Assembly: GCF_963675165.1 (NCBI RefSeq)
Contig: NC_087393.1
Location: 1,617,502 to 1,681,501 of the forward strand
Direction of reading: 5' to 3'
Length of the DNA: 64,000 nucleotides
Source of the DNA: Halichondria panicea
Lineage: Eukaryota > Porifera > Demospongiae > Suberitida > Halichondriidae
The position numbers and the translations under genes are program-made. Within the stretch, counting starts at the first letter, position 1; every line of letters starts with the position of its first letter. Below the pieces are notes generated by a model. That model was not told the DNA's origin. It did not search any database and worked only from the letters and a program-made list of their open reading frames with translations. Of the stretch, positions 2,292 to 61,681 are shown piece by piece.

Positions 2292-3317
2292 GATTGATCT
2301 CCTTTTGTTCTATGACATTAATTATAATAATGACATAATGTCTGACTCTCATTGTTAGCAGGAAGTTATTTAGCCACATTCTAATTATTATCTGTTGTTA
2401 AGCTTGTGAACTGCATTGCGATTTAGCTGCTTTATGATTGGCATTTAGGTGCAGCGCACTAAATTCGTTTTTAACTCGCATTACTCTTCTACTCAGCTTC
2501 TTTGCTAGCATTTCATGATCATCATGATAGAGGGTAAGGAATACAAGGGGTAAAAAACTATGTCATGGACAATGCGACTGAAATTTAACTAAACAGTTTG
2601 GTATGCCCCAACTATATAATCTGCATTATTTACAGAGAATCATCGGATACCCTTAGGCTATAGTTGCAGCAAATGAATGTATATATAACCCTATATACCA
2701 TTAGAGTATCAAGTTCCAACAACTGAAGGAGAAGTATATATATAGTGCTGCAGGATCACACTGAACCATACCAATATCATGATCAACCAATAACACAACT
2801 CGGCAGAATTTTCGATGAACTCGTCTACAAACTACATGCATGCACCCTCGACTTTATGTTTTCATTCGTGACATTTTGTTCTCATGCAAGACATTTTATT
2901 CATCTTCATTCATCCAAGGACGTGATTTTCACAGTATAATTAATTATGCTTGATTTAATCAAGCATAATATTAATTATTTTCCCTTCTAGCCCGGAGGCT
3001 AGACTACATGCATGTATAGACTATGACAAAAAGATATCTTTTTGTTACTGCATGTAATTAATTATTTCTTGCAACAATTATAATCTCAGTCAAAGTAAGC
3101 TAGTGAGAACAAACACAATAAGAACAACATCAGTGAGAAAATGAGTACAATGGAGTTATAGTTGGGAAAGTGCCAATAAACATGGAATGAAGTGTAGTCA
3201 TGTATTCAGCCTGAGGACAGAACAGAAACAGAAAAGATAAGTCAGCAGCGTCAGGTTAGAATCATGGCATAAAAAACAGCATGGAATGAGATGTTCAAAG
3301 GATCGAAGTTTTTAGTA
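2292..3317. other. Intergenic region between kinase start and DXO stop
   Basis: No coding exon is seen. It holds the kinase upstream region and the DXO 3' flank. A short near-perfect hairpin lies at about 2939-2977 (TATGCTTGAT facing ATCAAGCATA), and a smaller TAGCC/GGCTA hairpin near 2991. AT-rich otherwise. Confidence 0.5.
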
Positions 3318-6300
3318 CTAGTCCTCGGGAGGTGGTTGTTTGTCGAGGTACCATCTCGGTAGGAAGACGTGCTCACTATCGGGAGGACACTTGGTGGCCG
3401 TGACGGAGGTGTAGGGTGCTCTCCACTCAACTAGGTACACCACACTGTGTGTGTGTGTGTTGTGTGCGTGTGGGAGGGGGAGTAAAGATACAAGGTATTG
3501 TACGTGAAGTACGTCATGCCGAAAGCACAGTCAAAATTATACAAAGATCGAAAACAGTTCAGCTACTTTAAAAACTAGTCATGCATGTGTATTACGCTGC
3601 ACACAGTAACTATTCCTTTATATAGTTATAGGTCAAAGTGGAGATAGATACCGTATAGCGGGTTATTTTTGCTGGTGCAATTTTACGTGCATTGCAGAGC
3701 ATCATCCGAATATTAAAACTGTTCTGCCAATAGAACCTACAGCACTATTCTGAGCTGTATGAATATTTAGAATACGAAATATTGAATTGGGTAGTTCATA
3801 CGAAAGTTTTGACACCCACTATACGGTAAAATGTATAAACAGGGAGACCTGTAGGGTGACTGTATTCTATGAACAGGGAGACCTGTAGGGTGATGAGTGG
3901 TTTTTACAGCACCTTCTCAAGATTCCCTAAGGCAGTGCATAGGCATACCTGGGGTCATCGATGGTAACAGTCTTTCTGATCCAGGTGAGCAGCTCGTCTA
4001 GGAAGTTCATACACACAGCAGGTTGCCACATTGTCAGGTCATTCTGTACAGGATGTGTGTGCGCGCGTGTGTGTGAGTACTGAACATTAGCTGCAAGCCA
4101 TACACATCTATATACATGTAACTATATTCTACACACAAGCATTCAATCCAGCACAGCTTTCTTGAGCAAAACTCATTACAAGGATGAAAGTAGGTAGCAA
4201 GCATGGCAATGAGTAGCTGTGCATGTGCATGTACTTCAACTCTTAAAATCCATATCCATATATCACTTACTTCTAAGCTACGTACATAACACAATAAAAA
4301 AAAACAACTTGCCTTTCACCATCTTGCTGCCCCGTTTTACGTGCAGTAGGCCTAGGACCCTCAGAAAAAGTGACAATTAAAAATGAATGCACTTACAAGG
4401 ACAGTGCGTCTTTTTACTTACACAAAATATAAATATAATGGTGAAAAAGAAAGGACATATTTTAATTTCTCCCACAGTGCCCTTTACTCGCAAGTCTCCC
4501 TGTAGCACCCCCCTCCCTACCTGAGTCTCCCTGGGAATCTCAGATGTCCTGAAGGTCTGCATGGAGCGTACGATGCCCTCATCGTCCCTGAACCCACATA
4601 TGATCCTCGGGATACCCACCAGGAAAGACTGGGCCCACCACTTCATCAGCTTGTGCCTGTACGGGGGGAGTACATGCATGTCAAATATTACATAATTATA
4701 GCCATACATGTACATCAAAATAATTAGTGGTGGGCCCAGTTTTTCCTGGTGGGTATCCCGAGGATCATATGTGGGTTCAGGGATGATGAGGGCATCAATA
4801 AACGTCAAATGCTACTCCTCATACATCAAAATTATTAACTACATGCAATCATTATCACTTTTCAACTATCAATCTATGTGTATAAGCAAATCGAGGTACC
4901 GATATCATAGTATAATGTGAAGCTCCTCTACATTGTTGAACTTACTAGCCTCGATTCCAGGCCCGGAGTCGAGGCTAGGGACTTAATTAAAGTATCTACC
5001 ACGCAAATTGGAAGGAGAACAAACACACTACTGGAAATGTAAGCTCATGAAAGCAGTTCCAGGTGTACTGAACTGACCTCTTGAAGGAGGATTTGTTTCT
5101 ATCAGTGAGGATGACTCGACTGGTCTTGAATTCAATGTAGTTGCGAGGGATCTTATCTATGGATTGCTGCAAGGGGAGGAGGGGGGGAGAGGGATGAGGG
5201 GGAGGAAGGGGGGAGGGGAGGGGGAAGATGATAACAGTACAGTGTGCAGTACAGTACATACATGTACAGCTAAAATATGGACTGTTTATTATAATTCAAT
5301 CTCTTAAGTCTGCTAACCCACTCTGGTATCTGTGGACTCATTGCTAAGTTAGTGTGTAATGTTAGTAGAGTGAGATATTAGGGGATTCACATTCAAGTAC
5401 ATATACAGTGTACACGTACAGTACTTTAGTTCAAAGTCCAATACTATACCACACCCCCCAATTTTCTCTGACAAGTACTCTACACTGTACGAGCTACATG
5501 TGCATGTACATACACAAATGGGGCTACATAAATTAGAGCCCCCTGCTCACATGATCGGCGGCATCCACCTCAGCGGCCATGACGAGGGAGTGAGTGTTCA
5601 TACGTGTCCTCACGACAGTGCAGTAGCCACGGTTGGGATTGATCGTTCCAGGCTTTGTTACTGGCGTGGACGGGTTACTAGGCAACGGAGACGGCTTCAT
5701 AGGAGGGGGAGGATCTGTGGTGGTGGAAATTAATAGACAATTGACTACTGAAATAGACTGCACCTGTAAACAATTACAGATTTGCGTGATCAGAGGCCGC
5801 CGATAATGAATGTTTCATTTTGCTGGCAAAGGAGGGTACAGCTAGAGAGACCACTATTTGAGAGAGGCGTTTATTACTCGCACCCCAACAGATTCACTCT
5901 ACCCTAAATTTAGGTTGCATCATTTACTTGCACAAACTTGATCTCCGCCACAAGAAGCGTTTCTAGCGGCTACCGTAGATACAAAGTATCATGGCTGCAC
6001 GTGCGGAGATGATAGGGTCAAAGTTTACTGAGGCTATTACTTGAGAGCGGCTTCTATTGCACTGAAGAGAGGCTATTATTTGAGTAACCGGTTTTATAAG
6101 AGCGGCCTCTACTTCCAAGTATCTCTATTCTTGTGTAACATTTATCAAACCAACCCAAACCCTTTTAATTAATGTTGAGTTGAAAGAACTGTGATGAGCT
6201 AAGAAAATCTTGTTTACCTTTATTGGTGAGGTAGTCCTCGAACTTGAGTCCCCAATAACACATCAGCTCCATCCGTGGAGTTTGTTTGGCTGACGCTTCT

Positions 6301-27382: not shown

Positions 27383-30300
27383 TTATTGTTTCACATAGAG
27401 CATTCGTCCCTTTTCAACAGTCATTCCACTGGCTTTGGTCTTGAAGGACACCATCTTGGGATTCTTGTTGACATAACTGAAACTGAAACCCACACAGCTG
27501 GGATTCATCTCACACAACACCACGTACTGTTCAGTGGTATTAGCCCACAAGTTCACAGTACCCCCGTAAAGATCGTCACTCGGTATATCGGCATCCATTT
27601 TCGACATATACTTCGCATTTACATAGTCCATATTGTGATAGTACTTTTGCATTAGTTTATTAGACAATTCTATTGTATCTCCGGTAGGGGTGGTGGGGTA
27701 TGCTTCAATCTTTTCCCCCCAGTTCTTCTCGAAAGTAAACAACATGCTCTCATAAGCAATTTTGTTGAAAGCCTTATCGTTCATAATCGATTCATCAATC
27801 GTGTTTATAAAGAGCTTCCATCGCTGTGCATAGTAGCTGCTCACTAAGCCTGACCACTCCTTAGCAGCGTAATCCTCAATGTTCTCGATGGGTCCCCACA
27901 TTGTGATTTGGTTCCGAGCGTTATATTCAATTTTGTCCACAGCAGATGAGGAGGATCCTGGCTGGGCTGACGTACGAGCGTCATCGATCCAAGTACCGAG
28001 TAAGAAGTTAGCATTAGAGCCGAGAAGCATATCTAAATCTTCGAACATTGTCGTCCATGACTTTGCGAGGTCTTTCATTGCAGTGTAGACATTACTGTCC
28101 TTCTTGATCATGTAAGCAGAGTAAGCATTTGTGTAAATTGTGTAGACATCAGCAAACGTATTGACAATTACTTGTCGACCAATATCAACAATGTCGTACA
28201 GCAGAGGTCCAACTTCCGGGTCGTTACCGTTCACAGCGTCTGTAACCAGGTAGCTCCAAGCTGTGGCTATATTGTATGTTGCGAATCGCTTGTCAAAGGC
28301 CATGTTAAATTCAGGGTGGCGAACAAGTAGTGATTTGATTTGGCCAGACCAATGGAATTGGTAGGCTCCATTTAAGAGTAGTGTCCATGCATTACGTATG
28401 TTGTCTGTCATGGTCCCGTAGCGTCTCCTGGCGTAGTCCTCCACCCAGGGCATAACCGCCTCCACCTTTTCGCTCCTCCAGCTCATCTCTCCCTGCACAG
28501 GTGAAATGGCAGTCATTATACTATAGAATGATTTATTCTCTAGACATGTACTCACCATTAAATCATACATGATGGGGTTGTGCTCTATAGCTTCAGGGGT
28601 CATTCCAACACCGACCATAGTGCTACCATTCGTTAGTCGAGCATCAATAGGATCATTGCCGATAGTTGTTAGGTTGCCATAGATACCTCTAATGCCACCA
28701 TAGTTGTGGAGCATACACCAAATGAATGGTTTACCGAAAAATGATTGCGTGTTGGACCAAACAGGAGCTTGTTCGCTGCTAAGGTCCAGAATGATCATAT
28801 CGTCATTGGGCACTCCTGATAGGTAGGCTTTGATTCTTTCATTCGTCCAAAAACCTGCATAGAAAACAACAAAGGGTAAATTAAAACATAACACTCATGC
28901 ATGACCAGACGCATACACAACTCAGCCTGCAACTGCATGCATACACTATCCTATAGGTTAAACTCTAGTATTAAATGTTGCTACACAGCTCAAAATACTT
29001 ACGTCCATCTCTAAACAGCCACCCTTGCATCAGGTACGTAGCATTGGGGTCAGACTTTTTCATAGCATTATAGATTGCTGCATTCGATTCCTTGAGGAAA
29101 TTCAAGTCAGTATTGGAAGGTTCCATTTCATTATAAGTATCAGCGTTGTAAACATGATCAGTCCCATACTGAGAGATAAGGATATCATAAAACTTATTTC
29201 CTAGTTTAACGAACAGAGGATCCGTCGGTTCAAGAAGATAGTCTTCAGAATATTCAGGTCCAAAGGTAATCCACTGTGCTGATTGAGTGTAGTTAGCATT
29301 AGGGTATAACCTCTTCAGTCCTTTTGGTACGTGACCTGCGAATCCAGGCAAAACATTAATCATCCCAAACATTCGTATCTGCACGACAATCTGCTTCTGT
29401 AGTATAGCCTGTTCTGTCACCCAATCATCATCCAGAGGTCCAGCCCAACCGTGAATATTGCCCATTCGCTGCCAAGCAAGAAAAGCAGGCCCAGAAAAAA
29501 AATTACTCATTTCATCATCAGTTAATCCGAGTGAAGAGTAGAAGATTTTCCAGACAAATTCTTGTCCAGTAAACGAGAGGATAAGGTTGAGTCCGTTCAT
29601 GGCCATCCAGTCTATCTCCCTCTCCCATCTGTTCCAATCCCACCAGGCCATCGAGTACGACACTGTACACACATTTTGGTAGTACCTGCAATAAAGGATA
29701 ATGAGAAATTCACAGAGTGGTCATAGTACATTGGTTTGTTACAACAAAATTAACTAATGGTACACCCATTACTATATATTCTTTTATGCTCAAGGAATCC
29801 CATTATGGTTCCCATTATGCTCATACATTTTGATTTGGTACAAAAATAACTTCATCTGAGCCATAAATTGGAACCTAAAAATCAAAAGTTCAAGTCTAGT
29901 CTATATATAGATCTCTCGCTAGATCTAGATCAGATCTAGGTAACATAATGTTACTACACGTGTTACGTACGCTTCAAAATAACTTATGTTATAATCTGCT
30001 AATGGAGAGCCCATCCAGATAGTACTTCACAGGACTGGTGCAATATTACAAAAGCCCTATTTTACACTCTCTCGTAATCTTTGTGGTTTGGAATAAATGT
30101 ATTTAACACAATGGCGCCCACTAGGGGGGGGGGGGTAAATTATGTGTTTTTTTCAGAGCACTTTTAGCTAAAGCCCATTCCATTCAGTCAGAAAACCATT
30201 GACAGTGTACTTTTAGCTAACCATTCAATTGACAAAAAGGACTATAGGGTGGGCGCTGGGGGTGGGTACATTATGTTATAATTTGTGGGCACAATTCATT

Positions 30301-30798
30301 CAACAGCATTGCCAAATGATGTCAGTTACATTCTGCATGGTTGAAAAGATGGGTATTTTTAAGACAGGACTGTATCTACTATTAGAGTAGTAGATATATT
30401 CACCTGTATCGGTTGGGGAATATGACTCTTTTTCCCTCGCTGGGTAGTGGTAGTGTGCTGGGCAACTTTAACTGGTCCCCTGTACCGTTGAGACCCCAAC
30501 TAACAGAGCAATAGCAGTAGTACTTGAGATAATAGTTGAAAGCAGCCGCTAAAGCAACTCCATTGTTACCGCGAAAAACAGGTCTTTTTGTTTTGTCGTC
30601 TGTATCAACCTCAAACACATCAAATCCATCAGAGGTGGCTGGTATGACCTCATAGCTGAACTTGTCCACCCATTCTTGACTCAAGATTCTCCCCACAAGG
30701 CCCTGGATGGCTTTGACAGGGTCTCCCTTGGGTGCTACAGGGAGGGAGGCAGCTGTACCTAGCAGCAGGGCAGTGATCAAGAAATAGAAAAGCTTCAT
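27383..30798 (-). CDS. NAGLU: Alpha-N-acetylglucosaminidase (GH89), copy A
   Basis: Exons 30404-30798, 29003-29685, 28556-28854 and 27383-28492 give 828 residues plus stop, all phases consistent; human NAGLU is 743. A hydrophobic signal peptide (residues 1-20, ending TAASLP) fits lysosomal or secreted targeting. GH89 features include NRYRYYQNVCTVSYS, WWDWNRWEREIDWMA, NGLNL, and the catalytic glutamates E318 (in NEMEP) and E447 (in MTPEA), close to human E316 and E446. The family cleaves terminal alpha-N-acetylglucosamine from heparan sulfate. The third intron is only 63 bp (28493-28555) and has no stop, so retention would add 21 in-frame codons; in copies B and C the same intron exceeds 900 bp. 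Start chosen by the signal peptide and by match to copy B; an in-frame ATG at 30912 would precede it without a signal. Confidence 0.93.
29686..30403. other. NAGLU-A first intron
   Basis: 718-bp intron, far longer than the 53-bp equivalent in copy B, so it contains inserted sequence. It holds a poly-G tract near 30125-30137. No inverted-repeat element could be delimited. Confidence 0.5.
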
Positions 30799-30947
30799 TG
30801 CAATTATTGTGTCTACAGTTTCTGCATCTACCAGCCCCTCCCATCCCAACCTACCGATAAGGGTCACACTCCGGGTTTTATCTAATTGAACGCTTCCTGC
30901 TGAAGAGGTCAAATCTGCAGATGATCCAGCTATCCAGCTAAATTGCC
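30799..30947. promoter_or_regulatory. Bidirectional promoter between NAGLU A and B
   Basis: Only 149 bp separate the two divergent start codons, so both 5' untranslated regions and core promoters must lie here or overlap the genes. No TATA box recognised. Confidence 0.6.
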
Positions 30948-33900
30948 ATGAAGTTTCTCTACTTTGTTAGCATTGCCCTGCTGCTAGGTACAGCTGCCTC
31001 CCTCCCTGTAGCACCCAAGGGAGACCCTGTCAAAGCCATCCAGGGCCTTGTGGGGAGAATCTTGAGTCAAGAATGGGTGGACAAGTTCAGCTATGAGGTC
31101 ATACCAGCCACTTCTGATGGATTTGATGTGTTTGAGGTTGATACAGACAACAAAGCAAATAGGCCTGTTTTTCGTGGTAACAATGGAGTTGCTTTAGCGT
31201 CTGCTTTCAACTATTATCTCAAGTACTACTGCTATTGCTCTGTTAGTTGGGGTCTCAACAGTACAGGGGACCAGTTAAAGTTGCCCAGCACACTACCACT
31301 ACCTAGCAAGGGGAAAAGAGTCATATTCCCCAACCGATACAGGTGAATGCAGTACTTTGCTTTGTGAGTTGCTCATTGTCCTTCATGCATTGCAGATACT
31401 ACCAGAATGTGTGTACAGTGTCGTACTCGATGGCCTGGTGGGACTGGAACAGATGGGAGAGGGAGATAGACTGGATGGCCATGAACGGGCTAAACCTTAT
31501 CCTCTCATTTACGGGACAAGAGGTGGCCTGGTATTTCTCGTACACCCTTATTGGCTTAACTGATGAAGAACTTGACCAGTACTTCTCTGGACCAGCTTTT
31601 CTTGCATGGCAACGTATGGGCAATATTCGTGGATGGGCTGGACCTCTGGATAAGGGGTGGATATATGTGCAATACTATTTGCAAAAGACTATTTTTGAAC
31701 AGACTCGAACATTTGGTATGATTAATGTTTTCCCTGGGTTTTCTGGTCATGTGCCCAAAGGTCTCTTAAGATTATATCCTGATTCTAACTTCACTCGAGC
31801 CACACAGTGGGGTCATTTTGGAACAGAATATTCAGAGGACTATCTTCTTGAACCGACCGATTCTCAATTTTTAGGAGTTGCACAAACCTACTACAAGCTG
31901 CTCATATTTTATTTTGGTGGAACTGATCATGTTTACAACGCTGACACTTACAATGAAATGCAACCTTCCAGCACTGACTTGAATTTCCTCAAAGAATCGA
32001 ATGCAGCAATCTACAATGCTATGAAAAGTGTAGACCCTAATGCTACGTTCTTGATGCAAGGGTGGCTATTTAGAAATGAAGCAGGTATGTCAATTATAAC
32101 CTCGTGTGCGCATGCGCAGTGAGGTATACGGACCTAATATGGTTGTGTGTGTGCGTGTATGTGTCTGTCAGTGCAGTTGTTCAATGCTTAATGAAGTTCA
32201 AGCAAGAGTTCTATAGGCTTCTAGTTACAGATTGCAATTTGTTTTGTTCTCGAGTTAGATTGGTCTTACAGTAGCCTTTTCAGAACAGTGCGTATATATA
32301 TAGCAAAACTTGTCCATGGAGTGTTGCTACTTTACTTAGTAGTTATAGCTCTGCACTTAGACCTCTATAGCTGCAATAGTGAGAAAAGAGCTGCAAAGCT
32401 GCACTTAGCTGTTTCATTCTGCAGCCATTAATTTTATGAACTTTTAACTTTTTGGTAACAACCATGGTCAATCATTTCCCACTTTTTCCACCAATGTAGT
32501 AAGTATAGCTAATTGGTACCTCCACGAGGCATCCATGGTCAATTATTTCCGCACCAATGTAGTACGCATATAGCTTTGGAGGTATCAGCACCCGCAGTGC
32601 TTTCATTATAATATATCTTTTACAGGTTTTTGGACAAATGAAAGAATCAAGGCCTACCTATCAGGAGTGCCCAATGACGATATGATCATTCTGGACCTCA
32701 GCAGCGAACAAGTTCCTATTTGGTCAAAGACAGAGTCCTTTTTCGGTAAACCATTCATTTGGTGTATGCTCCACAACTATGGTGGCATTAGAGGTATTTA
32801 TGGCAACCTGACGACTATCGGCAATGATCCTATTGATGCTCGACTCGTGAATGGTAGCACTATGGTCGGTGTTGGAATGACCCCTGAAGCTATAGAGCAC
32901 AACCCCATCATGTATGATTTAATGGTGAGTACATGACAATCTATGCCTCGCGTAGCTGCACAAGGTAAACCCATTGTAAAGCTGTCTGTGTAGGTCTGTG
33001 TATTTCTGCTGTAACTGTAACTGCTCAACAGTTGTAATGCGAGTACATTTAACAGCTGGCTTCTAGCGACGTTTTCTTGGATTTTGACTCGTGGATTTGC
33101 TAAGTAAAGCTTTGTTCTTGATTTATGGCTTCTTCAGAATCGTGTGTAGCATCATCTGCTCGCATAACATTTCTATTCAACTTATTAGTTACTTGCACTA
33201 AAGCGCTTAGCCTAGCTATTTGTCAGAAAAGAGCTGTACTTGCCAGAAGCATCAGCCATTGTGAACTTTAACCTTTTCAGATCCACCCCTTTTATTATTT
33301 TGTTGTTAGGAAATGCACATAATACTAAACATAGACCAGATGAGGCACGGTCAAAAAGTCACGTGGGCTTATAGGCTTATCATTTACTTGTGAAACTGAG
33401 TTCACCCTTGCATGCACCTTTGGATTTATACACCACCACTCTTAAAACAGAACCTATTGCGCCCCAGAACCCGCTTGAGAGAAGAGATTCAATGCCTTTT
33501 ATTGTATTCTTTGATATACCACGTACAAAGATATGGAAAATTAGCCTTCTGTCGCTAGTTTATACATTTTTAATGTACTGGTTTGCTGCACTGGGTAGAT
33601 CTACGTAGGTGTATATAGCAATTTTTCCAAGCAGACAAATAAACAAACAAAAAGCGTTGGCTGTTAGATGAAAAAATACGGTGCAATCGTCAATAACTCA
33701 AGAAAAAACTGTTTAATTTCTTCATTAAAAGTGACCCTCATTGCTGACCCTGTTTAACGTACTCGTCTGATCATAGATACTATCAAGACGAGTGCATGAA
33801 TGATACAGTATGATTTATTCTAAAGATATTCATATTCTAGTAATGACTGCCATTTCACCTGTGCAGGGAGAGATGAGCTGGAGGAGCGAAAAGGTGGAGG

Positions 33901-34979
33901 CGGTTATGTCCTGGGTGGAGGACTACGCCAGGAGACGCTACGGGACCATGACAAACAACATACGCAATGCATGGACACTACTCTTAAATGGAGCTTACCA
34001 ATTCCATTGGTCCTGGCAAATCAAATCACTACTTGTTCGCCACCCTGAATTTAACATGGCCTTTGACAAGCGATTCGCAACTTTTAATATAGCCACAGCT
34101 TGGAGCTACCTGGTTACAGACGCTGTGAACGATAACGCTGACCCAAAAGTTGGACCTCTGCTGTACGACATTGTTGATATTGGTCGACAAGTGATTGTCA
34201 ATACGTTTGCTGATGTCTACACAATTTACACAAATGCTTACTCTTCATACATGAGCAAAAAGAACAGTAATGTCTACACTGCAATGAAAGACCTCGCAAA
34301 GTCATGGACGACAATGTTCGAAGATTTAGATGGTCTTCTCGGCTCTAACGCTAACTTTTTACTCGGTACTTGGATCAATGACGCTCGTAAATCAGCCCAG
34401 CCTGGAACCTCCTCATCTGCTGTGGACAGAATCGAGTTCAATGCTCGGAACCAAATCACAATGTGGGGACCCAACGAGAACATTGAGGATTACGCTGCTA
34501 AGGAGTGGTCAGGCTTAGTGAGCAGCTACTATGCACAGCGATGGAAGCTCTTTATAAACACGATTGATGAATCGATTATGAACGATAAGGCTTTCAACAA
34601 AACTGCTTATGAGAGCATGTTGTTTACTCTCGAGAAGAACTGGGGGGAAAAGATTGAAGCATACCCCACCACCCCTACCGGAGATACAATAGAATTGTCT
34701 AATAAACTAATGCAAAAGTACTATCACAATATAGACTATGTAAATGCGAAGTATATGTCGAAAATGGATGCCGATATACCGAGTGACGATCTTTACGGGG
34801 GTGCTGTGAACTTGTGGGCTAATACCACTGAACAGTACGTGGTGTTGTGTGAGATGAATCCCAGCTGTGTGGGTTTCAGTTTCAGTTATGTCAACAAGAA
34901 TCCCAAGATGGTGTCCTTCAAGACCAAAGTCAGTGGAATCACCGTTGAAAAGGGACGAATGCTCTATGTGAAGCACTAA
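30948..34979 (+). CDS. NAGLU: Alpha-N-acetylglucosaminidase (GH89), copy B
   Basis: Exons 30948-31342, 31396-32084, 32626-32924 and 33867-34979 give 831 residues plus stop with all phases consistent. Signal peptide residues 1-20 (ending TAASLP). The same GH89 motifs and both catalytic glutamates (NEMQP, MTPEA) are kept. Exon 1 is nearly identical to copy A although the genes point in opposite directions; exon 2 differs more (RNEAG here, RDGR in A), which hints at gene conversion near the shared promoter. Introns 2 and 3 carry dispersed repeats absent from copy A. It is tail to tail with the ABCC gene and the parent or sister of pseudogene copy C. Confidence 0.94.
32098..32612. repeat. Dispersed GT-core repeat in NAGLU-B intron 2
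   Basis: Runs from CGTGTGCGCATGCGCAGTGA through a GTGTGTG core to GTATCAGCACCCGCAGTGC. It is shared with copy C (58430-58922), so it predates that duplication. Relatives at 17505-18905 and 49155-49612. A related segment follows in intron 3 at about 32941-33190. Confidence 0.7.
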
Positions 34980-37376: not shown

Positions 37377-37396
37377 ACTCAACAAATTGAAAAACT

Positions 37397-40300
37397 GGTT
37401 GGTACTTGATATAAGACTCACGAATATAGCTGAATCAGCAATAAACTACAATATAATTACAGTAGTTCCTACAGTTCCACAGTTCCACAATTCCATGGTT
37501 CCACCGTTCCATGGTTCCACCGTTCCATGGTTCCATGGTTCCATAGTTCCATGGTTCCACCGTTCCATGGTTCCATAGTTCCATGGTTCCACCGTTCCAT
37601 GGTTCCACGGTTCCATGGTTCCACCGTTCCATGGTTCCATGGTTCCACAGTTCCATGGTTCCACAGTTTCATGGTTCCACCGTTCCATGGTTCCACAGTT
37701 CCATGGTTCCACAGTTCCACGGTTCCACCGTTCCATGGTTCCATAGTTCCATGGTTCCACAGTTCCATGGTTCCACCGTTCCATGGTTCCATAGTTCCAT
37801 GGTTCCATGGTTCCACCGTTCCATGGTTCCATGGTTCCACAGTTCCATGGTTCCACAGTTCCATGGTTCCACCGTTCCATGGTTCCATGGTTCCACCGTT
37901 CCATGGTTTCATGGTTCCACAGTTCCATGGTTCCACCGTTCCATGGTTCCATGGTTCCACGGTTCCATGGTTTCACAGTTCCACGGTTCCACAGTTCCAC
38001 CGTTCCACCGTTCCATGGTTCCATGGTTCCATAGTTCCACGGTTCCACAGTTCCATGGTTCCACAGTTCCATGGTTCCACCGTTCCATGGTTCCACCGTT
38101 CCATAGTTCCATGGTTCCATGGTTCCATGGTTCCATGGTTCCATAGTTCCATGGTTCCACAGTTCCATGGTTCCACCGTTCCATGGTTCCACAGTTCCAT
38201 GGTTCCACAGTTCCATGGTTCCACCGTTCCATGGTTCCACAGTTCCATGGTTCCACCGTTCCATTGTTCCATAGTTCCATGGTTCCATGGTTCCACAGTT
38301 CCACAGTTCCATGGTTCCACAGTTTTATGGTTCCACCGTTCCACCGTTCCATAGTTCCATGGTTCCACAGTTCCATGGTTCCACGGTTCCATGGTTCCAC
38401 AGTTCCATGGTTCCACAGTTCCATGGTTCCACCGTTCCACAGTTCCATGGTTCCACCGTCCACCGTTCCATGGTTCCATAGTTCCATGGTTCCACAGTTC
38501 CATGGTTCCATGGTTCCACAGTTCCATGGTTCCACAGTTCCATGGTTCCACCGTTCCATAGTTCCATGGTTCCATGGTTCCATAGTTCCATGGTTCCACA
38601 GTTCCATGGTTCCATTGTTCCATGGTTCCACAGTTCCATGGTTCCACAGTTCCATGGTTCCATCGTTCCATGGTTCCACAGTTCCATGGTTTCACCGTTC
38701 CACCGTTCCATGGTTCCATAGTTCCATGGTTCCATGGTTCCACAGTTCCACAGTTCCATGGTTCCACAGTTTTATGGTTTCACTGTTCCACCGTTCCATA
38801 GTTCCATGGTTCCACAGTTCCATGGTTCCACCGTTCCATGGTTCCATGGTTCCACAGTTCCATGGTTCCACAGTTCCATGGTTCCACCGTTCCATGGTTC
38901 CACCGTCCACCGTTCCATGGTTCCATAGTTCCACAGTTCCACAGTTCCATAGTTCCATGGTTCCACAGTTCCATGGTTCCACAGTTCCATGGTTCCACCG
39001 TTCCATAGTTCCATGGTTCCACAGTTCCATGGTTCCACAGTTCCATGATTCTACCGTTCCATGGTTCCATAGTTCCATGGTTCCATGGTTCCACAGTTCC
39101 ATGGTTCCACCGTTCCACCGTTCCATGGTTCCACAGTTCCATGGTTCCACAGTTCCATGGTTCCACAGTTCCATGGTTCCACCGTTCCATGGTTCCATAG
39201 TTCCATGGTTCCACAGTTCCATGGTTCCACCGTTCCACCGTTCCATGGTTCCATAGTTCCATGGTTCCACAGTTCCATGGTTCCACAGTTCCATGGTTCC
39301 ACAGTTCCATGGTTCCACCGTTCCACCGTTCCATGGTTCCATAGTTCCATGGTTCCACAGTTCCATGGTTCCATAGTTCCATGGTTCCACAGTTCCATGG
39401 TTCCACAGTTCCATGGTTCCATCGTTCCATAGTTCCATGGTTCCACAGTTCCATGGTTCCACAGTTCCATGGTTCCATCGTTCCACCGTTCCATGGTTCC
39501 ATAGTTCCATGGTTCCACAGTTCCATGGTTCCATCGTTCCATCGTTCCATGGTTCCACAGTTCTATGGTTCCACCGTTCCATGGTTCCATGGTTCTACAG
39601 TTCCATGGTTCCACCGTTCCACCGTTCCATGGTTCCATAGTTCCATAGTTCCATAGTTCCTACAGTTCCATCGTTCCACAGTTCCATGGTTCCACGGTTC
39701 CATAGTTCCATGGTTCCACAGTTCCATGGTTCCACCGTTCCATGGTTCCATGGTTCCACCGTTCCACGGTTCCATGGTTCCATGATTCCACAGTTCCATG
39801 GTTCCACCGTTCCATGGTTCTATGGTTCCACCGTTCCACCGTTCCATAGTTCCACAGTTCCATGGTTCCACCGTTTCATGGTTCCCTGGTTCCACCGTTC
39901 CAAGCGTTCCATGATTTCACGGTTCCATAGTTTCATGGTTCCACAGTTCCACCGTTCCAAGCGTTCCATGGTTCCATAGTTCCATGGTTCCACAGTTCCA
40001 AGGTTCCATGGTTCCATAGTTTCAAGGGTTCCATGGTTCCATAGTTCCAAGTATTCCAAGCGTTCCAAGGTTCCATGGTTCCATAGTTCCATGGTTCCAA
40101 GCGTTCCATAGTTCCTGCTGTTCCATGGTTCCTACTGTTCCTAGGTTCTAAGTGTTCTATGGGTCCAACTTTTCACTTTTCTTCCATGGTTCCATGGTTC
40201 CTACTGTTCCGTGCATGGTTTCTATACTGTTCCTTGTTCCCAGCATTCCATGGTTCCCACTGTTCCTTTAAAAATGTTCAACAATCATGGAACACTTGGA

Positions 40301-42700
40301 ACAATGGAATGCTTGGAACTATGGAACACTTGGAATCATGGAACAGTAGGAACTATGGAACGCTTGGAACCATGGAACAGTAGGAACCATGGAACGCTTG
40401 GAATCATGGAACAGTAGGAATCATGGAACGCTTGGAACTATGGAACCATGGAACGCTTGGAACCATGGAACAGTAGGAATCACGGAATGCTTGGAACTAT
40501 GGAACCATGGAACGCTTGGAACCATGGAACGCTTGGAACTATGGAACTATGGAACCATAAAACCATGGAACTGTGGAACAATGGAACCATGAAACTGTGG
40601 AACCATGGAACGCTTGGAACCATGGAACCGTGGAACTGTGGAACTGTGGAACCATGGAACCATGGAACTGTGGAACAGTGGAACCATGGAACCGTGGAAC
40701 AATGGAACCGTGGAACCATGGATGTGGAACCATGGACGCTTGGAACCATGGAACGCTTGGAACCATGGAACGCTTGGAACTATGGAACTATGAATTGTGG
40801 AACCATGGAACTGTGGAACCATGGAACGCTTGGAATCATGGAACCGTGGAACCATGGAACTGTGGAACGGTGGAACCATGGAACTATGGAACGCTTGGAA
40901 CCATGGAACCATGGAACGCTTGGAACTATGGAACCATAGAACCATGGAACTATGGAACCATGGAACCGTGGAACTGTGGAACCGTGGAACCATGAAACTG
41001 TGGAACCGTGGAACTGTGGAACCGTGGAACTGTGGAACCGTGGAACCATGAAACTGTGGAACGGTGGAACCATGGAACTGTGGAACTATGGAACGCTTGG
41101 AACCATGGAACGCTTGGAACCATTAAATCTTGGAACCGTGAACGGTGGAACCATGGAACGCTTGGAACGATGGAACTGTGGAACCATGAAACTATGGAAC
41201 CGTGGAACCATGGAACGCTTGGAACGGTGGAACCATGGAACTGTTGAACCATGGAACTATGGAACCATGAACTATGGAACCATGGAACGGTGGAACCATG
41301 GAACTGTGGAACCATGGAACTGTGGAACCATGGAACTGTAGGAACTATGGAACTACGGAACCATGGAACCATAGAACGGTGGAAAGGTGGAAAGGTGGAA
41401 CGGTGGAACGGTGGAACGGTGGAACCATGGAACTGTGGAACCATGGAACTGTGGAACCATGAACCATGGAACCATGGAACCATGGAACCGTGGAACGGTG
41501 GAACCGTGGAACTGTGGAACTGTGGAACCATGGAACGGTGGAACCATGGAACTGTGGAACCATGGAACGGTGGAACGGTGGAACGGTGGAACGGTGGAGC
41601 GGTGGAACTGTGGAACCATGGAACTGTGGAACCATGAACCATGGAACTATGGAACGGTGGAACCATGGAACTGTGGAACCATGGAACGGTGGAACCATGG
41701 AACTGTGGAACCATGGAACCATGGAACGGTGGAACCATGGAACTGTGGAACCATGGAACCATGGAACGGTGGAACCATGGAACTGTGGAACCATGGAACG
41801 GTGGAACCATGGAACTGTGGAACCATGGAACTGTGGAACCATGGAACTATGGAACGGTGGAGCGGTGGAACCATGGAACTGTGGAACCATGGAACTGTGG
41901 AACCATGGAACTATGGAACGGTGGAACGGTGGAACCATGGAACTGTGGAACCATGGAACTGTGGAACCATGGAACTGTGGAACCATGGAACGGTGGAACC
42001 ATGGAACCATGGAACGGTGGAACGGTGGAACCATGGAACTATAAAACCATGGAACCATGGAACGGTGGAACCATGGAACCATGGAACGGTGGAACGGTGG
42101 AACCATGGAACTGTGGAACCATGGAACCGTGGAACCATGGAACCATGGAACGGTGGAACGGTGGAACCATGGAACTGTGGAACCATGGAACGGTGGAACT
42201 ATGGAACCATGGAACGGTGGAACGGTGGAACCATGGAACTTTGGAACCATGGAACCATGGAACTATGGAACCATGGAACGGTGGAACCATGGAACTGTGG
42301 AATCATGGAACCATGGAACGGTGGAACCATGGAACCATGGAACGGTGGAACCATGGAACTGTGGAACCATGGAACTGTGGAACCATGGAACCATGGAACG
42401 GTGGAACCATGGAACTGTGGAACCATGGAACGGTGGAACCATGGAACCATGGAACGGTGGAACCATGGAACTGTGGAACCATGGAACTGTGGAACCATGG
42501 AACCATGGAACGGTGGAACCATGGAACTGTGGAACCATGGAACCATGGAACGGTGGAACCATGGAACTGTGGAACCATGGAACCATGGAACGGTGGAACC
42601 ATGGAATTGTGGAACCGTGGAACTGTAGGAACTACTGTAATTATATTGTAGTTTATTGCTGATTCAGCTATATTCGTGAGTCTTATATCAAGTACCAACC
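37397..42700. mobile_element. 5.3-kb foldback element built from an 8-bp satellite, 8-bp target duplication
   Basis: Flanked by direct repeats GAAAAACT (37389-37396, 42701-42708). The paralogous flank of copy C (61610-61617) has one GAAAAACT and no insert. Unique ends of about 80 bp (37397-37478 and 42622-42700) are near-identical reverse complements starting GGTTGGTACTTGATATAAGA. The rest is an 8-bp unit GTTCCAYN: GTTCCATG, GTTCCACC, GTTCCACA, GTTCCATA and rarer forms on the left arm (to about 40230), their reverse complements on the right arm (from about 40280). Near the centre 9-bp variants (GTTCCAAGC) and GTTCCTACT dominate. A short non-repeat loop lies at about 40262-40300. No transposase; long open frames in all six frames are repeat artefacts. 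Confidence 0.95.
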
Positions 42701-42768
42701 GAAAAACTGTTCTATAAGTAATTAATAAAATTAATATGAAGCCACAAATTGAAAAACTGTTCTATAAG

Positions 42769-55641: not shown

Positions 55642-55810
55642 GAGGCTATATATATATATAATAATAATGATGACTGCCATGAATTAATTGCACATTAAAA
55701 ATCATGTACGAACAGACTGTCAGACAACTTACCATCCTTCCAAGGTTCGAGAATTGAACCCTCTACTTAACCTCATGACAGCAGAGCAAACATTTGCTTG
55801 GATTTCCAGA

Positions 55811-57080
55811 TGCAACGGTGCAACAGATGCAACGGTGCAACAGATGCAACAGATGCAACAGATGCAACGGTGCAACAGATGCAACGGTGCAACAGATGCA
55901 ACAGATGCAACGGTGCAACAGATGCAACGGTGCAACAGATGCAACGATGCAACAGATGCAGCGGTGCAACAGATGCAACAGATGCAACAGATGCAACGGT
56001 GCAACAGATGCAACAGATGCAACGGTGCAACAGATGCAACGGTGCAACAGATGCAACAGATGCAACAGATGCAATGGTGCAACAGATGCAACAGATGCAA
56101 CAGATGCAACAGATGCAACGGTGCAACGGTGCAACAGATGCAACAGATGCAACGGTGCAACAGGTGCAACGGTGCAACAGATGCAACCGTGGAAAAGATG
56201 CAACAGATGCAACGGTGCAACAGATGCAACAGATGCAACGGTGCAACAGATGCAACGGTGCAACAGGTGCAACGGTGCAACAGATGCAACGGTGCAACAG
56301 GTGCAACGGTGCAACAGATGCAACGGTGCAACAGATGCAACAGATGCAACAGATGCAACGGTGCAACAGATGCAACGGTGCAACAGATGCAACGGTGCAA
56401 CAGATGCAACAGATGCAACAGATGCAACGGTGCAACAGATGCAACAGATGCAACGGTGCAACAGATGCAACAGATGCAACAGATGCAACGGTGCAACAGG
56501 TGCAACGGTGCAACAGATGCAACCGTGGAAAAGATGCAACAGATGCAACGGTGCAACAGATGCAACAGATGCAACAGATGCAACGGTGCAACAGATGCAA
56601 CGGTGCAACAGATGCAACAGATGCAACGGTGCAACAGATGCAACAGATGCAACGGTGCAACAGATGCAACAGATGCAACGGTGCAACAGATGCAATGGTG
56701 CAACAGATGCAACAGATGCAACAGATGCAACGGTGCAACAGATGCAACAGATGCAACGGTGCAACAGATGCAACGGTGCAACAGATGCAACGATGCAACA
56801 GATGCAACGGTGCAACAGATGCAACAGATGCAACAGATGCAACGGTGCAACAGATGCAACAGATGCAACAGATGCAACGGTGCAACAGATGCAACGGTGC
56901 AACAGATGCAACGGTGCAACAGATGCAACAGATGCAACGGTGCAACAGATGCAACAGATGCAACAGTGCAACAGATGCAACGGTGCAACAGATGCAACGG
57001 TGCAACAGATGCAACGGTGCAACAGATGCAACGGTGCAACAGATGCAACGGTGCAACAGATGCAACAGATGCAACGGTGC
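55811..57080. repeat. Satellite array of ATGCAACAG and TGCAACGG-type units
   Basis: About 1.27 kb of alternating 9-bp ATGCAACAG / ATGCAACGG and 8-bp TGCAACAG units, with higher-order blocks; for example an ATGCAACCGTGGAAAAG block occurs at about 56180 and again at 56517. Long open frames occur in five frames because the units lack stops there; they are not genes. Confidence 0.9.
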
Positions 57081-57455: not shown

Positions 57456-58429
57456 GATGGATTTGATGTGTTTGAGGTTGATACAGACAACAAAGCAAAT
57501 AGGCCTGTTTTTCGTGGTAACAATGGAGTTGCTTTAGCGTCTGCTTTCAACTATTATCTCAAGTACTACTGCTATTGCTCTGTTAGTTGGGGTCTCAACG
57601 GTACAGGGGACCAGTTAAAGTTGCCCAGCACACTACCACTACCTAGCAAGGGGAAAAGAGTCATATTCCCCAACGGATACAGGTGAATGCAGTACTTTGC
57701 TTTGTGAGTTGCTCATTGTCCCTCATGCATTGCAGATACTACCAGAATGTGTGTACAGTGTCGTACTCGATGGCCTGGTGGGACTGGAACAGATGGGAGA
57801 GGGAGATAGACTGGATGGCCATGAACGGACTCAACCTTATCCTCTCGTTTACTGGACAAGAGGTGGCCTGGTATTTCTCATACACTCTTATTGGCTTAAC
57901 TGACGAAGAACTTGACCAGTACTTCTCTGGACCAGCTTTTCTTGCATGGCAACGTATGGGCAATATTCGTGGATGGGCTGGACCTCTGGATAAGGGGTGG
58001 ATATATGTGCAATACTATTTGCAAAAGACTATTTTTGAACAGACTCGAACATTTGGTATGATTAATGTTTTCCCTGGGTTTTCTGGTCATGTGCCCAAAG
58101 GTCTCTTAAGATTATATCCTGATTCTAACTTCACTCGAGCCACACAGTGGGGTCATTTTGGAACAGAATATTCAGAGGACTATCTTCTTGAGTTGCACAA
58201 ACCTACTACAGGCTGCTCATATTTTATTTTGGTGGAACTGATCATGTTTACAACGCTGACACTTACAATGAAATGCAACCTTCCAGCACTGACTTGAATT
58301 TCCTCAAAGAATCGAATGCAGCAATCTACAATGCTATGAAAAGTGTAGACCCTAATGCTACGTTCTTGATGCAAGGGTGGCTATTTAGAAATGAAGCAGG
58401 TATGTCAATTATAACCTTGTGTGCGCATG

Positions 58430-58922
58430 TGCAGTGAGGTATAAGGACCTAATACGGTTGTGTGTGTGCGTGTATGTGTCTGTCAATGCAGTTGTTCAAT
58501 GCTTAATGAAGTTCAAGCAAGAGTTTTATAGGCTTCTAGTCACAGATTGCAATTTGTTTTGTTCTCGAGTTAGATTGGTTTGCCATTCTTACAGTAGCCT
58601 TTTCAGAACAGTGCGTATATATAGCAAAACTTGTCCATGGAGTGTTGCTACTCTACTTAGTAGTTATAGCTCTGCACTTAGACCTCTATAGCTGCAATAG
58701 TGAGAAAAGAGCTGCAAAGCTGCACTTAGCTGTTTCATTCTGCAGCCATTAATTTTATGAACTTTTAACTTTTTGGTAACAACCATGGTCAATCATTTCC
58801 CACTTTTTGCACCAATGTAGTAAGTATAGCTAATTGGTACCTCCACGAGGCATCCATGGTCAATTATTTCCGCACCAATGTAGTACGCATATAGCTTTGG
58901 AGGTATCAGCACCCGCAGTGCT
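58430..58922. repeat. Dispersed GT-core repeat in NAGLU copy C intron 2
   Basis: Orthologous to 32098-32612 in copy B, with scattered substitutions and small indels. Confidence 0.7.
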
Positions 58923-61681
58923 TTCATTATAATATATCTTTTACAGGTTTTTGGACGAATGAAAGAATCAAGGCCTACCTATCAGGAGTGCCCAATGACG
59001 ATATGATCATTCTGGACCTCAGCAGCGAACAAGTTCCTATTTGGTCAAAGACAGAGTCCTTTTTCGGTAAACCATTCATTTGGTGTATGCTCCACAACTA
59101 TGGTGGCATTAGAGGTATTTATGGCAACCTGACGACTATCGGCAATGATCCTATTGATGCTCGACTCGCGAATGGTAGCACTATGGTCGGTGTTGGAATG
59201 ACCCCTGAAGCTATAGAGCACAACCCCATCATGTATGGTTTAATGGTGAGTACATGACAATCTATGCCTCGCGTAGCTGCACAAGGTAAACCCATTGTAA
59301 AGCTGTCTGTGTAGGTGTGTGTATTTCAGCTGTAACTGTAACTGCTCAACGGTTGTAATGCGAGTACATTTAACAGCTGGCTTCTAGTGACGTTTTCTTG
59401 GATTTGGACTCGTGGATTTGCTAAGTAAAGCTTCGTTCTTGATTTATGGCTTCTTCAGAATCGTGTGTAGCATCATCTGCTCGCATAACATTTCTATTCA
59501 ACTTATTAGTTACTTGCACTAAAGCGCTTAGCCTAGCTATTTGTCAGAAAAGAGCTGTACTTGCCAGAAGCATCAGCCATTGTGAACTTTAACCTTTTCA
59601 GATCCACCCCTTTTATTATTTTGTTGTCACAGGAAATGCACATAATACTAAACATAGACCAGAGGAGGCACGGTCAAAAAGTCACGTGGGCTTATAGGCT
59701 TATCATTTACTTGTGAAACTGAGTTCACCCTTGCATGCACCTTTGGATTTATACACCACCACTCTTAAAACAGAACCTATTGCGCCCCAGAACCCGCTTG
59801 AGAGAAGAGATTCAATGCCTTTTATTGCATTCTTTGATATACCACGTACAAAGATATGGAAAATTAGCCTTCTGTCGCTAGTTTATACATTTTTAATGTA
59901 CTGGTTTGCTGCACTGGGTAGATCTACGTAGCAAGTTTTCCAAGCAGACAAATAAACAAATAAAAAGCGTTAGCTGTTAGATGAAAAAATACGGTGCAAT
60001 CGTCAATAACGCAAGACAAAACTGTTTAATTTCTTCATTAAAAGTGACCCTCATTGCTGACCCTGTTTAACGTACTCCTCTGATCATAGATACTATCAAG
60101 ACGAGTGCATGAATGATACAGTATGATTTATTCTAAAGATATTCATGTTCTAGTAATGACTGCCATTTCACCTGTGCAGGGAGAGATGAGCTGGAGGAGC
60201 GAAAAGGTGGAGGCGGTTATGCCCTGGGTGGAGGACTACACCAGGAGACGCTACGGGACCATGACAGACAACATACGCAATGCATGGACACTACTCTTAA
60301 ATGGAGCCTACCAATTCCATTGGTCCTGGCAAATCAAATCACTACTTGTTCGCCACCCTAAATTTAACATGGCTTTTGACAAGCGATTCGCAATTTTTAA
60401 TATAGCCACAGCTTGGAGCTACCTGGTTACAGACACTGTGAACGGTAACGCTGACCCAAAAGTTGGACCTCTGCTGTACGACATTGTTGATATTGGTCGA
60501 CAAGTGATTGTCAATACGTTTGCTGATGTCTACACACTTTACACAAGTGCTCACTCTTCATACATGATCAAGAAGGACAGTAATGTCTACACTGCAATGA
60601 AAGACCTCGCAAAGTCATGGACGACAATGTTCGAAGATTTAGATATGCTTCTCGGCTCTAATGCTAACTTCTTACTCGGTACTTGGATCGATGACGCTCG
60701 TACGTCAGCCCAGCCAGGATCCTCCTCATCTGCTGTGGACAAGATTGAATATAATGCTCGGAACCAAATCACAATGTGGGGACCCAACGAGAACATTGAG
60801 GATTACGCTGCTAAGGAGTGGTCAGGCTTAGTGAGCAGCTACTATGCACAGCGATGGAAGCTCTTTATAAACACGATTGATGAATCGATTATGAACGATA
60901 AGGCTTTCAACAAAACTGCTTACGAGAGCATGTTGTTTACTCTCAAGAAGAACTGGGGGGAAAAGATTGAAGCATACCCCACCACCCCTACCGGAGATAC
61001 AATAGAATTGTCTAATAAACTAATGCAAAAGTACTATCACAATATGGACTATGTAAATGCAAAGTATATGTCGAAAATGGATGCCGATATACCGAGTGAC
61101 GATCTTTACGGGGGTGCTGTGAACTTGTGGGCTAATACCACTGAACAGTACGTGGTGTTGTGTGAGATGAATCCCAGCTGTGTGGGTTTCAGTTTCAGTT
61201 ACGTCAACAAGAATCCCAAGATGGTGTCCTTCAAGACCAAAGTCAGTGGAATCACCCTTGAAAAGGGACGCATGCTCTATGTGAAGCACTAACCATTAAA
61301 CGTACTAGACTTAATACATTTTTTTGTATGTATATGTAGGGGTACATATATACTTGACTGTTAGTGTATGTGTTGCGCACCAGAAACTATACATTTTACT
61401 TGACTTCCTAACCCTAGATTGAGTATGTACATGGATTGATTTTATTGTACGGGTATAGCTATAATTATATGGATATAGTCTGTTGTGATGATGAAATATT
61501 TTTAATCTGTCACAACAGTTAAGATTTGTCATGACTTGTGAAATACAAAACAGGGGGGTGCACTAATTCAAGAGCTTGATAAATACGAAGCTAATTAACT
61601 CAACAAATTGAAAAACTGTTCTATAAGTTAATAAATAAATACGAAGCCAATTACATATAACTGAAAAAACTGTTCTATAAG

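Follow-up and report, generated by a model that had tools for sequence, protein, structure and literature searches.

A palindromic, foldback-type copy of a probably MULE-related transposon with arms of an 8-bp repeat in the sponge Halichondria panicea

The 64,000-nucleotide stretch of the Halichondria panicea genome analysed here (NCBI RefSeq assembly GCF_963675165.1, contig NC_087393.1, positions 1,617,502 to 1,681,501; named the window in the following) contains at its positions 37397-42700 a palindromic insertion of 5,304 bp whose two arms consist of short tandem units running in opposite directions, which raises the question of what kind of element this insertion represents and what its arms might do. 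Based on the comparisons described below, we consider it quite probable that this window copy belongs to a cut-and-paste DNA transposon, itself a probable relative of Mutator-like elements (MULEs), and that it represents a palindromic (foldback-type) and non-autonomous form thereof.

An earlier reading made from the letters of this DNA (the sequence-only reading) had described a 5.3-kb insertion with unique inverted ends of about 80 bp, an 8-bp target duplication and an empty site, all of which was borne out: the inverted ends are identical across the outer 84 bp, GAAAAACT is present on both sides, and the joined flank of the element is found as unfilled target copies at ~42751 and ~61610, with the target of the insertion sitting within a short repeated sequence (Table 1). 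The 20-bp end motif GGTTGGTACTTGATATAAGA occurs at two places in the window, being the two outermost ends (37397 on the plus strand and 42700 on the minus strand), as compared to a mean of 0.01 in shuffled sequences. The left arm (2.6 kb) is a period-8 array of 329.5 copies on the plus strand and the right arm (2.3 kb) is an array of approximately 290 copies representing the reverse complement of the left one, which is the structure of the foldback-type class, whose long inverted ends enclose tandem repeats and are able to fold back. The longest ungapped inverted pair (37397-38636 versus 41461-42700) is 85% complementary, and the arms are ~85-88% alike in register without being identical. The arm unit is best written GTTCCANN, consisting of six conserved and two variable bases; the claim that the body is made entirely of GTTCCAYN units, reversed in its second half, is slightly too strong, as 9-bp GTTCCAAGC units and degenerate units are present towards the centre.

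The genome (131 Mb in 39 contigs, denoted C below) was searched with a 73-bp end query, which retrieved at least 26 matches at a minimum of 18 loci, and all 18 (the window included) were examined as members of family 1. Both ends are present at ten of these loci. A perfect 8/8 duplication was found at three of the ten, namely the window, C1:4676580-4690570 (GGAAATTT) and C1:12104 (AGGATCTC, the left end of this copy being short by 4 bp), and a 7/8 duplication at three others (C5:6281438, C13:2062705 and C5:6442444), while a direct duplication is absent from the remaining four (C13:2045382, C4:4147, C2:2027 and C14:2619). The dispersed copies with target duplications that characterize the foldback class, and that the sequence-only reading had suggested searching for when it described a mobile element with a body of inverted satellite DNA, do exist. 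Long arrays occur at ten of the 18 loci, a few units at one (on C2) and none at seven, whose ends are divergent or truncated; all ten loci with well-preserved ends carry arrays. A genome-wide count of strict four-unit repeat stretches gave 1,459 (726 + 733), 1,404 of which (692 + 712) are located inside the examined loci. Therefore, the 8-bp repeat is part of the element and not a free satellite, and capture of a free satellite is ruled out for family 1 on the same grounds. A chance arrangement or a simple microsatellite was also rejected, given the inverted unique ends, the target duplication, the unfilled sites and the further copies.

The palindrome itself seems to have moved, because approximately 500 bp around the centre of the window copy match the copy at C5:6281438 (96.9%) in the opposite orientation; global alignment of these two copies is uninformative (85-86% in either orientation), the centre alone being informative. 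Considering that palindromic chimeras are a known artefact of long reads, an inversion produced by fold-back chimeric reads was weighed as an alternative. The locus that could represent such a chimera is C13:2045382-2048312, where the two arms are identical over 983 bp apart from one mismatch and where 988 bp of the left flank reappears on the right as an inverted copy (100%), while the same flank (98.5% over 1,500 bp) together with the first 515 bp of the element is found in direct orientation at C13:2062705-2064394. At the former locus, the left half of an insertion seems to have been duplicated in inverted orientation, with an assembly error also being possible; it may have been generated by a palindrome folding back during break repair, and the palindrome would then promote fold-back rearrangements of this type. 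For the element in general, an assembly artefact is very improbable, because inverted arms recur at several other loci together with target duplications; in addition, unfilled sites exist for the window copy, the arms of which differ from one another.

The sequence-only reading had recommended looking for a full-length relative with a transposase, and a larger relative was encountered at C1:4676580-4690570, a 13,991-bp member with the same ends as the window copy, the perfect duplication mentioned above and a transposase-like open frame. TTCCA/TGGAA arrays fill the outer 200-bp bins of this element inward from both sides and end near 2700 and 11100 (positions of the joined slices), leaving a core of ~8.4 kb. 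The minus strand of this core contains P0001, a stop-free open frame of 903 aa (this length being that of the open frame, with the real start and a possible upstream exon left aside), for which 28 genome matches were obtained when P0001 itself and fragments are counted. P0001 elicits weak OTU-type Pfam hits under the curated cut-offs (PF10275, E 0.002; PF02338, E 0.11), and a 41%-identical relative on C23 matches the MSL2-type CXC domain (E 3.6e-5, 2.4 bits under the cut-off). A signature of the C/DxxH form characterizes one type of DDE transposase, and P0001 and a 38%-identical relative have kept DHTFK, an aspartate preceding CC, DLFH/DVFH, and N-x-E together with HxHIN, which would fit the pattern expected of such an enzyme. 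Comparison with solved structures returned one marginal OTU chain for P0001 (E 0.29) and four carboxylesterase chains for a two-row profile (E 2.9), and no P0001 relative was confirmed in viral and genome contig collections using short peptide patterns, by which close relatives only are detectable. The most plausible reading of the window copy is that of a core-less derivative of an element of this kind. Its presumed derivation by core loss rests on the shared ends and unit, because neither its centre nor those of seven other core-less copies yielded any core sequence (positions 39700-40700 of the window do not match the 13,991-bp element's core).

On its plus strand, the same core contains several open frames, including one with a Walker A motif (GPSETGKST), which look like a multi-exon P-loop gene. 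These frames, taken singly or as a joined guess, gave marginal Pfam hits of unrelated kinds only, and no solved-structure relative of the pieces was found at the thresholds used. The P-loop gene, which was noted at positions 5043-5390 of a fetched slice (L014) and at 17 more places in the genome, showed no relative in Pfam or PDB under the cut-offs applied. Of these 18 matches of its Walker A exon, nine lie within ~2-8 kb of a match to the MULE model PF10551, four beside P0001 or its relatives, and five elsewhere. The P-loop partner that P0001 appears to share with MULEs is taken as independent support for a kinship between them.

Three further element sets with inverted arms of other 9-bp units are present in the genome. 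Family 2 is represented by a 29-kb locus (C1:5224618-5253747) which harbours the 38% relative of P0001, and of which the left part (2.5 kb read) is an array of GGTAANNNN and the right part a 1.8-kb array of TTACCNNNN, inverted relative to the left one and leading to the right end ...GAAACAACC. Family 3 has its outer 40 bp in common with the family-2 end and possesses arms of GCTACNNNN, which are short in the C4 copy (456 bp in total); its duplication is perfect at two of the four places inspected (C4:3547779, CAGAGGAG; C5:3320494, GAACAAAC) and absent from the other two (C5:6044429 and C1:5093309). Family 4, a true MULE matching PF10551, shows this design as well. Its ends gave 19 matches, five of which are unpaired and were set aside, and each of the seven end pairs encloses a PF10551 match and a P-loop match; the one copy of the seven that was inspected for arms (C2:973549-982509) has inverted GAGTCNNNN arrays around its genes, and the two copies checked for duplications show GTGTTTTAG (9/9, at C2) and TACAAGAT (8/8, at C10). 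Inverted GGTAA/TTACC arrays were also noted at two loci on C3 (3784700-3786900, slice L058; 1126300-1131600, slice L061), with at least the outermost 37 bp being unlike the family-2 end and no duplication being seen at either; these loci are perhaps further subfamilies.

The 8-10-bp duplications typical of MULEs were thus found in three families, measuring 8 bp in family 1 as well as in family 3, and 9 or 8 bp in the two family-4 copies. When a pooled profile of nine local MULEs was compared in local mode to the P0001 family, E-values (of a single comparison) of 1.5e-4 to 1.5e-3 and probabilities of 16-51% were obtained, this range being generated by using each of the nine MULEs in turn as the reference row; the corresponding controls gave E 0.76 (reversed profile) and 0.27-0.97 (12 column shuffles). 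Conclusions were drawn from the local runs, a global-type run giving E 1.9e-4 for the pooled profile and end-to-end scraps for sub-profiles. The pooled match between P0001 and MULEs is suggestive only, and a kinship of the 903-aa protein with MULEs may be called weakly supported.

An alternative assignment would be that the elements are not MULE relatives and are instead foldback members of the P/Galileo, hAT or Zisupton/KDZ groups or of an unnamed superfamily. P and hAT elements make 8-bp duplications. Zisupton does so too (PMC12730594), and family 1 displays duplications of this size. None of the 35 places in the genome that match PF10551 corresponds to P0001, nor was this model hit in the Pfam scan of P0001. 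A TNP-like RNase H gene is present in the family-2 locus, where it is possibly nested (positions 2051-3082, minus strand, of fetched slice L055; PF21787, E 3e-24), and we take PF21787 to be the P-element-type RNase H domain. On the other hand, neither a THAP nor a P-type RNase H domain was hit in P0001 by Pfam up to E 1, inspection by eye of the family-1 core open reading frames, a minority of which were scanned, revealed no P-type frame, and Pfam transposase catalytic models are missing from P0001 (up to E 1) and from the relatives tested (up to E 5), the one hit of interest being a weak ISL3-type helix-turn-helix match (E 0.0036). P0001 and its relatives hit neither KDZ-type models, which Pfam contains, nor a hAT model, and PF10551 MULEs share the P-loop partner. 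Taken together, we regard this alternative as unlikely.

Several of the above results and a number of others nevertheless weigh against the preferred reading, i.e. a core-less copy of a probably MULE-related transposon with paired arms. Apart from the missing PF10551 match, the family-2 RNase H gene, the core-free centres and the four two-ended loci without a direct duplication, the copy at C5:6442444-6444533 is almost one-armed (6 GTTCCA versus 204 TGGAAC), with both ends and its 7/8 duplication being present, and the 13,991-bp copy has an irregular left arm (seven strict four-unit stretches versus 134 in the right arm). The family-2 locus has a damaged left end, an unconvincing duplication (6/8) and 16 kb that are unread, and 26 of the 35 PF10551 places have no P-loop match close by. 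The pooled-profile alignment mostly covers ~80 columns (78-121), including the second aspartate and DLFH, and three MULE sub-profiles taken apart gave E 0.17-0.37 in local mode, near their reversed controls (0.55-0.73); this weakness lowered our confidence in the preferred reading and raised that in another superfamily.

With regard to the function of the arms, nine arms were analysed, in which a better-conserved run of five positions has a mean entropy of 0.04-0.61 bits as compared to 0.93-1.24 bits for the remaining positions; since this run was chosen by script as the one with the lowest entropy, some of the contrast is built in. A neutral control, being a duplication and mutation model with matched mean entropy and no founder polymorphism, was simulated for five of the nine arms, with the other four (including family 4, with 21 units) falling outside it. 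For each of four arrays from families 1 and 2, the observed contrast was reached in 0 of 120 neutral runs, whereas the family-3 array gave 13 of 120, the latter being a further point against a conserved binding function. We infer that the arms may constitute end-marking, high-avidity arrays of candidate transposase-binding sites, a reading favoured because the unit cores are conserved as in spaced protein-binding sites and because of precedents in Galileo, whose long ends hold repeated sites bound by the THAP domain of its transposase and for which such a role has been suggested (PMC3688188), and in Aedes. Alternatively, the arms could be functionless arrays made by slippage and carried along, their inverted layout resulting from the copying of one arm onto the other, which would agree with the family-3 result, with arm lengths that differ widely among copies and with the nearly one-armed copy. 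This explanation is a tenable though less probable one when set against the four different 8-9-bp units that each have a contiguous better-conserved core (its run of five being script-picked), the 0 of 480 neutral runs obtained with a simple model in four arrays, and the arrays retained at every family-1 locus with well-preserved ends.

Under the preferred reading, a full element would consist of short unique ends starting with GGTTGG, long opposed arms of short units, and a core with DDE-like transposase and P-loop genes. The 903-aa protein would be the transposase, an element-encoded protein would bind the conserved 5-6-bp core of each unit, and the window copy would depend for its movement on transposase acting in trans, leaving an 8-bp duplication. 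The arms would lengthen and shorten via unequal exchange or slippage.

The sequence-only reading had proposed a possible new family, a claim of novelty that needs softening, since foldback-type MULEs with 9-15-bp subterminal tandem repeats and 8-9-bp duplications have already been described in Aedes (PMC5225508). In Aedes, such repeats occur in 10 of 12 MULE families with long terminal inverted repeats, and Muta1, which transposes in yeast, was termed a 'type2 Foldback TE' (PMC5225508). Muta1 and Muta5 of Aedes aegypti resemble the sponge element in their 8-9-bp duplications and non-autonomous derivatives, and their ends of 145-151 bp contain a repeat of 12 bp or 15 bp in nine copies (PMC5225508), whereas the arms of the larger sponge copies measure ~1-3 kb and comprise ~100-400 units of 8-9 bp, in addition to which there is a 903-aa transposase-like protein with OTU-like and CXC-like regions, and a P-loop partner. 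Galileo, a Drosophila member of the P superfamily, shares the foldback layout with very long inverted ends containing tandem repeats, but its transposase is of the P type with a THAP domain (PMC3688188), neither of which Pfam detects in P0001. Tetris of Drosophila virilis is likewise a foldback element with a satellite-like repeat in its inverted ends and 8-10-bp duplications; its 220-bp repeat also occurs in longer satellite arrays and no autonomous partner was reported (PMC4079207), in contrast to the sponge repeat, for which 96% of strict four-unit stretches lie in the examined element loci and for which a coding element with arms is present. Tm1, a Mutator/Foldback element of root-knot nematodes, has inverted ends that are composite and include a redundant ~14-bp motif, and non-autonomous derivatives, as well as a 9-bp duplication, a Phantom-like transposase and many elements below 1 kb (PMC3169594). 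Rehavkus and Phantom are MULE-type or MULE-related elements with an internal minisatellite, located before the 3' inverted repeat in Rehavkus (which has 9-bp duplications and a PHD finger) and after the transposase open reading frame in aphid Phantom (PMC6446971). The cnidarian MULE MuDR-6_HM is listed with an 'Ovarian Tumour Gene' and thus also possesses an OTU-type gene, its duplication and inverted repeat being unlisted and the comparison being one of description only (PMC6446971).

The window element is thus real and mobile and, as far as checked, a new family of a known foldback kind. Within the sources consulted, its arms are far longer and its units shorter than those of comparable described elements, and its coding side is unusual rather than unparalleled, as an OTU-type gene in a MULE is known (PMC6446971). 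Its novelty lies in the 8-bp unit, in arms of this size and in an unusual transposase-like protein being paired with a P-loop gene; such an element was absent among the literature matches listed (titles and abstract openings, the 8-bp unit and GGTTGG ends not being used as queries). More tentatively, these families might form an undescribed transposon clade with an OTU-/CXC-like transposase and a P-loop partner, in which the arms are family-specific, spacing-constrained site arrays that diverge together with the specificity of the protein inside a single genome, and in which core-less copies give rise to giant palindromes driving fold-back rearrangements; if true, the code of each family would be a 5-6-base core with 2-4 variable bases. 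In any case, one genome displays satellite-like arrays that exist as transposon arms, with at least four different units, which makes it a testable question whether long repetitive foldback arms are binding-site arrays or passengers, and likewise whether a binding-site code and its transposase evolve jointly. A P-loop gene common to typical MULEs and to a strongly diverged transposase-like protein is also worth study.

Table 1. Parts of the palindromic insertion and its target copies (window coordinates).
Feature	Position	Strand	Basis
Left target site duplication GAAAAACT	37389..37396	+	sequence; right copy 42701-42708, empty sites ~42751 and ~61610
Left terminal inverted repeat, unique part, 84 bp	37397..37480	+	identical to other end; among 26 genome end matches
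Left arm, ~329 units GTTCCANN	37491..40132	+	period-8 array
Degenerate centre, ~150 bp	40133..40285	.	between the two arms
Right arm, ~290 units (TGGAAC on +)	40286..42623	-	period-8 array
Right terminal inverted repeat, unique part	42617..42700	-	identical to left end
Right target site duplication GAAAAACT	42701..42708	+	sequence
Unfilled target copy near the element (GAAAAACTGTTCTATAAG)	42751..42768	+	matches joined flank
Second unfilled target copy	61610..61627	+	adjoins NAGLU-like gene copy

An RNA gene was also rejected, as neither an Rfam match at gathering score nor a tRNA was detected in the window. Open frames of the window carry NAGLU, ABC-transporter and kinase domains (Pfam), and NAGLU-like gene copies are present in both orientations at 27386-34976 and 57647-61292 (two frames being Pfam-tested, and the latter copy being recognized by eye). 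Positions 55807-57075 contain a 1.3-kb array in one orientation of mixed 9-bp and 8-bp units (CAGATGCAA, CGGTGCAA), flanked by no inverted ends that could be seen by eye, the unit sizes of which resemble those of the transposon arms.

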